A stretch of DNA of 37,325 bases from a virus, in the IMG/VR virus record IMGVR_UViG_3300019124_000020, positions 1 to 37,325 of that record; one strand, given 5' to 3'. Both the position numbers and the translations under genes were made by a program. Position 1 is the stretch's first letter. Each line of letters begins with the position of its first letter. Of the stretch, positions 2,743 through 23,135 are shown in pieces. The notes under the pieces are model-generated. The model was not told the origin of the DNA, made no database searches, and saw only the letters and a list, made by a program, of their open reading frames with translations.

Positions 2743-2826
2743 TGGTGCGCCGGGAGGGACTCGAACCCTCACGCCTTGCGGCAACGGATTTTGAGTCCGT
2801 CATGTCTGCCATTCCATCACCAGCGC
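2743..2826 (-). tRNA. tRNA-Leu(CAA), probable attP
   Basis: The reverse complement folds as a complete class II tRNA with encoded CCA. Acceptor arms are GCGCTGG and CCGGCGC with one G-U pair. The D stem is ATG/CAT. The anticodon arm ACGGA-CTCAAAA-TCCGT gives anticodon CAA (Leu, UUG codons). A long variable arm (GCC-GCAA-GGC) marks a leucine tRNA, and the T arm is GAGGG-TTCGAGT-CCCTC. It is the only minus-strand gene seen and lies 27 bases upstream of the integrase start. That suggests an attachment site copied from a host tRNA gene, so integration would restore the host gene. The intact 5' half means it could also be functional. Confidence 0.9.
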
Positions 2827-4204: not shown

Positions 4205-4223
4205 GATTTCCACACAGTTATGG
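4205..4223 (+). promoter_or_regulatory. Phage RNAP promoter P1
   Basis: GATTTCCACACAGTTATGG, first of a tandem pair 26 bp apart upstream of the phage RNA polymerase gene. It matches the 19-bp motif found eight times here. Placement before the polymerase gene suggests positive autoregulation. Transcription probably starts at the terminal GG, by analogy with T7. Confidence 0.8.
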
Positions 4224-21221: not shown

Positions 21222-21761
21222 ATGACCGCACCGCTTGGTCTCCGTGGCTGGCTGGCGGTCGCCCTGGTGGTCCTGAGTCTCGTTCTGGGTTGGACCACCA
21301 GCCACTACCGCTCCAAGGCCGCAGCCTTCAACCAGCAGTTGACTGTGTTGCAGGCCCGGGTCGCACTCCAGAACCAAGAGGCTGAACGCAAGCTGGCCGA
21401 ACTGACCCGCGAACGTGACGCCAAACAGGCCGAACTGGACGCCTTCCACGTTTCTCAGGAGAAGAAAGATGCGGCTGCAAAAGCTGAAATCGCTCGTCTT
21501 ACTACTGAGCTTGAGCAGCGCCCTATCCGGGTGCGCGTCGTCTCCCAGCCCAGTACCTGTGGGAGTGGTGGTGGAAGCCCCCAAGGTGACAGCACCGCCC
21601 CTTCCAGCCCTGGTCCGTCAGACGGAACCGAAGCCTACGGGCTACTTCCAGAAGCGAATCATCGACGCCTTGTCGCAGTGATTGCCGAAGCGGAGGCGAT
21701 CAACGCCGCCTACGCCTCGTGCAGGGCGCGTCTGTTCGCCCAGGAAGAAGCTCCGCGCTGA
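21222..21761 (+). CDS. Inner-membrane spanin (Rz-like)
   Basis: A 179-residue i-spanin that, with its outer-membrane partner, fuses the envelope at lysis. I start at ATG 21222 after GAGGTGG; GTG 21210 is possible but overlaps the upstream stop. Residues 7-26 form one membrane helix (GLRGWLAVALVVLSLVLGW), then a long coiled coil (about 30-105) with Arg/Glu/Ala heptads, and a C-terminal periplasmic part with two cysteines. The o-spanin gene lies entirely within it in the +1 frame. Spanins between scaffold and capsid are unusual; T7 keeps them after the fibre genes. A phage promoter overlaps the stop codon. Confidence 0.85.
   Translation: MTAPLGLRGWLAVALVVLSLVLGWTTSHYRSKAAAFNQQLTVLQARVALQNQEAERKLAELTRERDAKQAELDAFHVSQEKKDAAAKAEIARLTTELEQRPIRVRVVSQPSTCGSGGGSPQGDSTAPSSPGPSDGTEAYGLLPEANHRRLVAVIAEAEAINAAYASCRARLFAQEEAPR
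21469..21681 (+). CDS. Outer-membrane spanin lipoprotein (Rz1-like)
   Basis: A 70-residue lipoprotein nested in the i-spanin gene in the +1 frame, starting at ATG 21469 with AGGAG upstream. The signal sequence (KLKSLVLLLSLSSA) ends in the lipobox LSGC, giving a lipidated Cys. A proline-rich stretch follows (SPSPVPVGVVVEAPKVTAPP), then a short helix (YFQKRIIDAL). This is the classic embedded Rz1 design. It would bridge the periplasm by joining the C-terminal end of the i-spanin. Confidence 0.85.
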   Translation: MRLQKLKSLVLLLSLSSALSGCASSPSPVPVGVVVEAPKVTAPPLPALVRQTEPKPTGYFQKRIIDALSQ

Positions 21762-21778
21762 TTGCCACACAGTTATGG
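21760..21778 (+). promoter_or_regulatory. Phage RNAP promoter P8 (capsid promoter)
   Basis: GATTGCCACACAGTTATGG, overlapping the i-spanin stop. Its position matches the strong capsid promoter phi10 of T7. Its transcript would begin with the hairpin at 21777. Confidence 0.8.
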
Positions 21779-21795
21779 AGGAACAGGCTTCCTCC
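21777..21795 (+). other. 5'-end hairpin of capsid transcript
   Basis: GGAGGAA (21777-21783) pairs perfectly with TTCCTCC (21789-21795) around a five-base loop. If transcription starts at the promoter's GG, this is the first structure in the RNA. T7 late transcripts also begin with a small hairpin that protects them from decay. Confidence 0.55.
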
Positions 21796-21818
21796 TCTCC
21801 TGTGGTTGTTTTCTCCTT

Positions 21819-21851
21819 GCCCCCTTGAGTTCGACTTGAGGGGGCTTTTTT
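21819..21851 (+). terminator. Intrinsic terminator between P8 and capsid
   Basis: GCCCCCT (21819-21825) pairs with AGGGGGC (21839-21845), followed by six T. It stands 41 bases after promoter P8 and 268 bases before the capsid gene, so it would either end incoming transcripts or make a short RNA from P8. Confidence 0.75.
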
Positions 21852-21855
21852 CAAC

Positions 21856-22118
21856 CCATTGAAAGGAGGTGATCCACCTTCTCCGGTGTGACGGGCCGGC
21901 ATTCCCCGTACTCAGTGTGACCCCACGTCGGGAGACGTTAGGTCATGCGACCTCGTGACGTTGATACGCAAACCGCACTGGCAGCAAAGCCGGTGGTTGC
22001 AACCTGAAGTTCTTCACCACACAACCTTAGCCTCTGCGGAGACAACTTTGTGTGACGTGCGTGAGTGGGCTGATGGGAGCGAACAACTCTCTTCAACGCA
22101 TTCATGAGGTGACAACAA
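21856..22118 (+). ncRNA. Structured capsid leader RNA with anti-16S segments
   Basis: No open frame of use lies in these 263 bases, but several stems do: ACGTC-GGGA-GACGT (21925-21938), AGGTC-ATGC-GACCT (21940-21953), a 10-bp stem with a two-base bulge (21971-21998), and CACACAA (22018-22024) with TTGTGTG (22048-22054). GTGTGAC occurs at 21886, 21915 and 22050. AAAGGAGGTGATCCA (21862-21876) is complementary to the 3' tail of bacterial 16S rRNA. GGTGTGACGGGC (21885-21896) is complementary to the conserved 16S sequence around E. coli 1401-1412. The capsid Shine-Dalgarno, GAGGTGA, is at 22106. It is either a structured 5' leader or a separate RNA; the fold is from reading, not computed. Confidence 0.5.
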
Positions 22119-23075
22119 ATGTCCAACGCGATCGTTTCGCGTCTTGGTCAGGTCAATGGCGCAGGTGCCGTTGATGCCCTGTTTCTGAAGGTCTTCGCAG
22201 GGGAAGTTCTGACCAGCTTCGAGAAGACCAACGTGATGATGGACAAGCACATGGTGCGGACCATCTCCAATGGCAAGTCCGCGCAGTTCCCGGTTATGGG
22301 CCGTGGCTCGGCTTACTACCACACCCCTGGTGAGTTCATCCCGGGTGGGCAGATCAAGCACGCAGAGCGCACCATCACCATCGACGAACTGCTGATCGCC
22401 CCGGCGTTCATCGCTTCCATCGACGAGGCCAAGAACCACTACGACGTGCGTTCGGTGTACTCGAAGGAGCTGGGTGCCAAGCTGGCGAACACGATGGACA
22501 AGCACATCCTCCAGACTGCCGTCCAGGCCGCTCGTTCCACCAAGACCATCGACGACGCCGACCAGTTCGGTGGCACTCAGCTGACGCTGGCTTCCGCTGG
22601 CGATGCGAACAGCGGTGACGCCCTGGCTGATGCCATGTTCGAGGCCGCTCGCATCTTCGATGAGAAGTTCGTTCCGAACGACGCCCGGTTCTTCTTCGTG
22701 CGTCCCGCGCAGTTCTATGCGATGGCGAAGTCCACGAAGGTTCTGAACCGCGACTGGGGCGGCGAAGGGAGCTACGCTGGCGGCAACGTCATCCGCGTGG
22801 CTGGTCTGACCATCGTCAAGACCAACAACCTGCCCGGTAGTGTCGTGGCGAACGGCTCCCTGGAAGCTGGCACCGGCAACAAGTATGCGGGTGACTACAG
22901 CAAGACCGTGGGTCTGGCGATGCATCCGTCTGCCGTGGGTACGGTGAAGCTGCTCGACCTGGCTATGGAAGGTGAGTACCAGATCAACCGCCAAGGCCAC
23001 CTGATGGTGGCGAAGTACGCGGTGGGTCATGGTGTTCTGCGTCCTGAAGCCGCTGTCGAAGTCCGTATTCCGTAA
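22119..23075 (+). CDS. Major capsid protein, gp10-like
   Basis: A 318-residue HK97-fold capsid protein (T7 gp10A is about 345). GAGGTGA lies six bases before the ATG. Recognisable segments are ALFLKVFAGEVLTSFEKTNV, the HTPGEFIPGGQ loop, ITIDELLIAPAFIASIDEAK and the late GYxI-type region (LDLAMEGEYQINRQGHLMV). No slippage sequence is seen before the stop, so a T7-like 10B frameshift product is not predicted. It lies between the long structured leader and a terminator, consistent with very high expression. Confidence 0.96.
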   Translation: MSNAIVSRLGQVNGAGAVDALFLKVFAGEVLTSFEKTNVMMDKHMVRTISNGKSAQFPVMGRGSAYYHTPGEFIPGGQIKHAERTITIDELLIAPAFIASIDEAKNHYDVRSVYSKELGAKLANTMDKHILQTAVQAARSTKTIDDADQFGGTQLTLASAGDANSGDALADAMFEAARIFDEKFVPNDARFFFVRPAQFYAMAKSTKVLNRDWGGEGSYAGGNVIRVAGLTIVKTNNLPGSVVANGSLEAGTGNKYAGDYSKTVGLAMHPSAVGTVKLLDLAMEGEYQINRQGHLMVAKYAVGHGVLRPEAAVEVRIP

Positions 23076-23094: not shown

Positions 23095-23135
23095 AAGGGG
23101 GTCATGAGGTTAATCCTCGTGATCCCCTTTTTTTT
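23095..23135 (+). terminator. Strong terminator after capsid
   Basis: AAGGGG and TCATGAGG (23095-23109) pair with CCTCGTGA and CCCCTT across a five-base loop, about 14 pairs with one mismatch, and eight T follow. It is the counterpart of T7 T-phi. A near copy lies at 24407. Confidence 0.88.

Follow-up and report, generated by a model that had tools for sequence, protein, structure and literature searches.

The window analysed here, a stretch of 37,325 nucleotides, is the record of a LUZ100-like, T7-like podovirus, and the nearest named relative found for it was Pseudomonas phage LUZ100 (OP329100). The region of interest is the leader of the major capsid gene, whose features are collected in Table 1. 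The capsid promoter put forward in a preliminary description of this DNA was borne out, since CCACACAGTTATGGA corresponds to the phi7 promoter sequence of LUZ100. Promoter-like strings around CCACACAGTTATGG were repeated on the plus strand at positions 4211, 4237, 6937, 7145, 8896, 13058, 18112 and 21766; these probably serve the phage's RNA polymerase as promoters. The same description had missed a strong intrinsic terminator located between promoter and motif. Passages of the LUZ100 report (PMC10134795) describe a local promoter 5' and a strong terminator 3' of the capsid gene and, as far as these passages go, make no mention of the two-hairpin motif presented below. The window agrees with that report, its capsid gene being followed by a strong 15-pair intrinsic terminator (23095-23129, plus strand). 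ARAGORN found a tRNA-Leu as the sole tRNA of the window (anticodon CAA; 2743-2826, minus strand), and a tRNA remnant in the leader was rejected on that result. LUZ100 likewise has a tRNA-Leu, adjoining its integrase, and the window copy is possibly an attachment-site remnant.

Table 1. Features of the capsid leader and of the capsid gene, in window positions
Feature	Position	Strand	Basis
Phage RNA polymerase promoter CCACACAGTTATGGA, start of capsid transcript	21765-21779	+	Identical to LUZ100 phi7 promoter string; similar strings repeat along the window
Intrinsic terminator between promoter and motif	21819-21851	+	12-pair stem and T run
16S 3'-tail complement AAGGAGGTGATCCA (segment 1), start-codon-free	21863-21876	+	14 contiguous Watson-Crick matches
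Hairpin 1: AGGAGGTG (21864-21871) with CACCTTCT (21875-21882); hides the 16S complement	21864-21882	+	Folding, -9.4 kcal/mol
CTCC and X (G21885), proposed 5' side of pseudoknot CCX:X'GG	21881-21885	+	X-X' covariation
Second anti-16S string GGTGTGACGGGC (segment 2)	21885-21896	+	12 bases; overlaps X, spacer and 5' arm of hairpin 2
Hairpin 2: ACGGG/CCCGT, loop CCGGCATTC, CGG (X'GG) at 21897-21899	21891-21909	+	Hairpin at this place kept with unrelated stems
Hairpin 3: outer stem TGACC/GGTCA, inner stem ACGTC/GACGT	21918-21945	+	Folding; LUZ100 has a similar hairpin
P1: AAC, CG bulge, CACTGGC(AGCAAA)GCCGGTG, GTT	21971-21998	+	Inner and outer stems covary across capsid clade
P2	22018-22054	+	Alignment of 20 relatives
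P3; 3' arm abuts capsid Shine-Dalgarno GAGG (22106-22109)	22060-22109	+	Alignment of 20 relatives
Major capsid protein gene	22119-23075	+	LUZ100 homologue annotated as major capsid

A complement of 15 bases to the 16S 3' tail had been proposed at 21862-21876. Fourteen contiguous bases of it stood; the outermost one did not, base 21862 being an A where the complement would need a T. AAGGAGGTGATCCA was the sole match of at least 10 bases to the 16S tail in the window (the next best had 9), and 13 of its 14 bases were retained in LUZ100-clade relatives, a conservation that argues against chance. The 13-mer AAGGAGGTGATCC ends 243 nt before the capsid ATG in the window. Counted from the capsid start, it lay between -249 and -364 in LUZ100, L003, L004, L008-L012, L014 and L039, where it usually adjoins a tRNA gene. 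It was not found upstream of the capsid gene in L005-L007, L013 and L015-L018, nor in any more distant capsid relative. L005-L007, L013 and L015-L018 being near relatives of the window, the motif is dispensable. As the preliminary description had stated, no usable start codon follows segment 1: the nearest, GTG at 21886, lies 16 bases past GGAGG and runs straight into TGA. Two conventional roles were discarded on these grounds, namely that of an ordinary Shine-Dalgarno sequence, with a start codon 5-10 nt downstream, and that of a hidden short ORF, for which no start was found at usable spacing; in Streptococcus phages, the frame from AUC stops within a few codons (examined by eye).

Segment 1 is the 5' part of a motif spanning about 21863-21909 and made up of AAGGNGGUGAUCC, AUCUCC-X and a hairpin with loop X'GGNNA. 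The window displayed the defining sequence, AAGGNGGUGAUC(C) followed by CUCC within about 10 nt (21863-21884), with TTCTCC in place of the usual ATCTCC. Its hairpin 1 (-9.4 kcal/mol) is strong, yet weaker than pairing with the 16S tail (-25.7 kcal/mol). The remainder of the motif was examined statistically, the loci being treated as unrelated, i.e. with phylogeny ignored: a hairpin right after CUCC with a [G/C]GGNNA loop was present in 24 of 48 non-redundant loci that had been chosen by their 5' half only, a figure that fell to 0.67 +/- 0.78 (never above 3 in 100 shuffles) once the downstream sequence had been dinucleotide-shuffled; and where hairpins were picked blind to base X after CUCC (32 distinct stem sequences), X', the Watson-Crick complement of X, preceded the loop GG in 29 of 34 loci (C with GGG, G with CGG), whereas permuted X labels gave a mean of 18.6 and at most 27 in 20,000 (p 5e-5). 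The G/CGG pairs came from several unrelated contigs (L048, L092, L116 and L128) and from the LUZ100 clade, and the window obeys the rule, with X = G21885 and CGG within the loop CCGGCATTC. The putative pseudoknot CCX:X'GG is thus supported by covariation. Hairpin 1 and the pseudoknot would be alternatives, since the same CC bases pair in both. A GGAGGU:AUCUCC hairpin 1 as universal 5' stem was weakened as a candidate, orthologues breaking this pairing and using other purine-rich partners. With a covariance model seeded from other clades, LUZ100 scored 23.5 bits (E 0.0019) and the window, whose own copy is diverged, 15.1 bits (E 0.34).

The idea of a second contact with 16S rRNA, through 12 further bases, did not survive comparison. 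GGTGTGACGGGC was detected in the upstream region of no capsid relative compared and is unique to the window; in relatives its place is taken by a hairpin with a stem that is different almost each time. Being absent from relatives and overlapping a freely varying hairpin arm, the match is a coincidence, and segment 2 was rejected as a functional 16S site. By our own estimate, before correcting for the range of things sought, the chance that some 100 bases contain 12 in a row matching somewhere in a 1.5-kb rRNA is roughly 1%.

A second conserved element, P1-P3, consists of three hairpins (21971-22109) between the motif and the capsid start. It is specific to the capsid clade of the window, where it is kept down to about 60% capsid identity, and it is independent of the motif since motif-less relatives retain it. 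The P1-P3 leader probably tunes initiation around the capsid start. Comparison with relatives, which the preliminary description had named as the check on its proposal, thus yielded conserved complementarity for segment 1 and covariation for several stems. This supports the view of the capsid leader as a structured RNA in which the match to the 16S 3' tail is conserved.

Scans for AAGGAGGTGATCC-n-ATCTCC uncovered the motif in unrelated viral contigs, and BLAST with motif queries added Pakpunavirus, Klebsiella Jedunavirus, Streptococcus phages, PaBG and N4-like roseophages. Matches in genome scans came from Streptococcus, Oceanobacillus, a Bacillus MAG, a Lachnospiraceae MAG and Anaerococcus. 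Most copies lie between genes, coding matches having been taken out by hand (those in Prevotella and LKO4 and a recurrent lysin-type match were discarded in this way). Intergenic copies are known from LUZ100-like podoviruses, Pakpunavirus tRNA arrays, N4-like roseophages and siphoviruses of Streptococcus, Bacillus and clostridial type. In covariance searches, nearly every positive genome had one copy (one had three) and only a few percent of genomes at most were positive, as would be the case for an element carried by prophages. A cellular core element was rejected, copies being sporadic (10 of 297 genomes sampled at family level around one from Streptococcus, 2 of 300 sampled at phylum level). 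The same kind of search recovered no motif in E. coli genomes, and plasmids gave a single marginal match. Rfam reported no family above its gathering score in the leader of the window, only the tRNA elsewhere in it, and only tRNAs in 12 motif-bearing loci. No description of such an element was found in the open-access literature, subscription journals and preprints being outside the scope of that search. Its identity as a conserved phage RNA motif that is not listed by Rfam is well supported. In L188-L190 (phages of S. pneumoniae and S. suis), an upstream DUF6275-type gene has TAGGAGGTGATCC or a similar string at its end, the CTCCC hairpin is missing after it and the scaffold gene follows; this ending is possibly a degenerate or ancestral version of the motif.

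In 18 of the 26 loci examined, the next gene of some size downstream encodes a scaffold, major head, portal or large-terminase protein, an uncontrolled raw count that is biased to long ORFs. For this count, the downstream gene was whichever same-strand ORF stood out most among those beginning within 900 bases, so that smaller ORFs may intervene. These genes span many PHROGs (172, 194, 2303, 422, 283, 247, 544, 212, 10, 12 and 9), and further cases are the capsid gene in LUZ100-like phages and terminase or portal genes in Streptococcus phages. Exceptions were the Pakpunavirus copies inside a tRNA array, N4-like roseophages (in the order gene, motif, terminator), Klebsiella phages, where the motif lies in an antisense gap, and the PaBG copy. 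Often the motif directly adjoins an upstream stop codon, and a terminator often stands 3' of it; the copies of the window and of Streptococcus phages have the terminator 5', not 3'. The annotated terminators T14 and T15 of LUZ100 flank its tRNA-Asn together with the motif. A string of the type TGTCCAAA...GACATAAAAACTG was also observed between terminator and scaffold start in L239, L253, L044, L100 and L188-L190, with or without the motif.

As to selection on the 16S match itself, orthologous Streptococcus leaders varied in the 5' arm and kept CUCCC and hairpin 2. To limit bias, a set was obtained by scanning viral contigs with the 3' half alone (ATCTCCCAGC-n-GGGTTA), which gave 23 members judged true by context. 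They matched on average 10.1 of the 13 letters of AAGGAGGTGATCC, against 6.3 in shuffles (highest mean of 500 shuffles, 7.1). The duplex with the 16S tail averaged -18.2 kcal/mol in 22 members, against -6.4 in shuffles and -5.0 in flanks; the best nearby start-site region reached a mean of -7.1 kcal/mol. With letters kept and duplex energies beating shuffles, the motif consensus fits a complement of the 16S tail, a target that is near-universal in the hosts concerned. The Shine-Dalgarno core is broken in many members (GGCGG in L198, L206, L216, L231, L234 and L253; GGAAG in L205 and L246), indicating that strict Shine-Dalgarno pairing is not needed everywhere. Conservation of the 5' part supports a ribosomal target and stops short of proof, because common descent would also raise the letter and duplex figures.

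Several known systems resemble the motif in part. STAB-SD elements, reportedly described for Bacillus cry3A, share with it a start-codon-free Shine-Dalgarno sequence far 5' of a gene, proposed to hold 30S subunits, and such a sequence does lie in the 5' leader of the window. Yet they consist of a short polypurine string near the 5' end, whereas the motif is a complement of 13-14 bases reaching GAUCC, adds a second hairpin and a covarying pseudoknot and occurs in phages of many hosts. The T7 gene 10 leader with its epsilon enhancer likewise precedes the capsid gene of a T7-like phage, and complementarity to 16S has been proposed for it as well. That enhancer was reportedly proposed to pair with 16S near 458-466; the motif, in contrast, faces the 16S 3' tail, is structured and is common to unrelated phages. 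Ribosome standby sites likewise dock 30S away from a structured start site but are generally single-stranded and unspecific, unlike a sequence-specific tail complement in a conserved fold. The Caulobacter small RNA CC2171 (Rfam RF01867) carries GAAAGGAGGUGAUCCAGUGUCUC near its start and begins with nearly the same string, GAAAGGAGGUGAUCCA, as window positions 21853-21945. Membership was rejected, the window scoring 25.1 bits against a family cut-off of 75 bits. CC2171 further differs by its 159-position model with a long GC stem and by its occurrence only in Caulobacter among 14 control genomes; perhaps it is a bacterial equivalent or the remnant of a prophage.

The reading that we favour, with a confidence slightly short of even, is that a start-codon-free 16S-tail complement in a conserved leader RNA docks or holds 30S subunits on head-gene messages. 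A 30S subunit would pair through its 16S tail with the 13-14 base complement and be docked or held on the leader without initiating, which would raise the local ribosome supply for the capsid start or shield the message. The anti-16S bases would be hidden in hairpin 1 and free in the CCX:X'GG pseudoknot; since these folds are alternatives, the element could be switched by the binding of 30S or by an upstream ribosome as it terminates. In a broader and more speculative form, which we hold possible though doubtful, the motif would be a mobile ribosome-docking RNA module of unrelated tailed phages with Gram-negative and Gram-positive hosts, controlling head genes through this hidden/exposed switch.

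The parked 30S might instead serve only as a stabiliser of the STAB-SD type, protecting the leader from ribonucleases after processing next to the tRNA or terminator, with no direct part in initiation. A start-codon-free Shine-Dalgarno sequence far 5' of a highly expressed gene would fit, as would the adjoining tRNAs, which imply that the 5' end of LUZ100-like and Pakpunavirus copies arises by processing. We consider this unlikely, since hairpin 2 and the pseudoknot are left unaccounted for, 3'-end copies directly before a terminator misfit a 5' shield and Pseudomonas is not known to have the RNase J route of Bacillus. Copies in the Pakpunavirus tRNA array, beside LUZ100-like tRNAs or directly before intrinsic terminators, and the annotated 3'-end regions on both sides of the LUZ100 tRNA-Asn and motif, also recall a trans-acting small RNA, freed from tRNA arrays or terminated transcripts, that binds free 30S or 16S tails of the host. 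The head-gene placement in most tested loci suggests a role in cis, however, the anti-16S bases are held in a hairpin and 30S blocking would harm the phage too, so that a small RNA seems rather improbable.

A transcription attenuator, in which ribosome binding, or termination at a stop codon 5' of the motif, would pick hairpin 1 or the pseudoknot and hence set the activity of the neighbouring terminator before head genes, appears equally improbable. It would draw on the CC bases that both folds would share, on the stop codons that often touch the motif and on the intrinsic terminators 3' of many copies before scaffold genes, but the terminator precedes the motif in the window and in Streptococcus phages, and LUZ100-like copies do not adjoin an upstream stop codon. 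That both anti-16S strings arose by chance in a leader without ribosome-related function is very improbable as a whole: the second string is confined to the window and some relatives wholly lack the motif, yet the first has conservation, structure and duplex statistics on its side. Coincidence is accordingly unlikely for segment 1 and accepted for segment 2.

Even if another mechanism applied, the motif would stand as a conserved phage RNA absent from Rfam. Its occurrence before head genes of many unrelated phages, with Gram-negative and with Gram-positive hosts, suggests, at the level of sequence comparison, a shared way of handling ribosomes on capsid messages. Were 30S docking to hold true, unrelated phages would share one RNA device against a near-universal ribosomal sequence, placed before their most heavily expressed genes. 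The device would then be a new RNA family whose ribosome target can be tested directly. It could be of use as an expression part across a broad range of hosts, and it would inform the question of how phages prioritise their structural messages.
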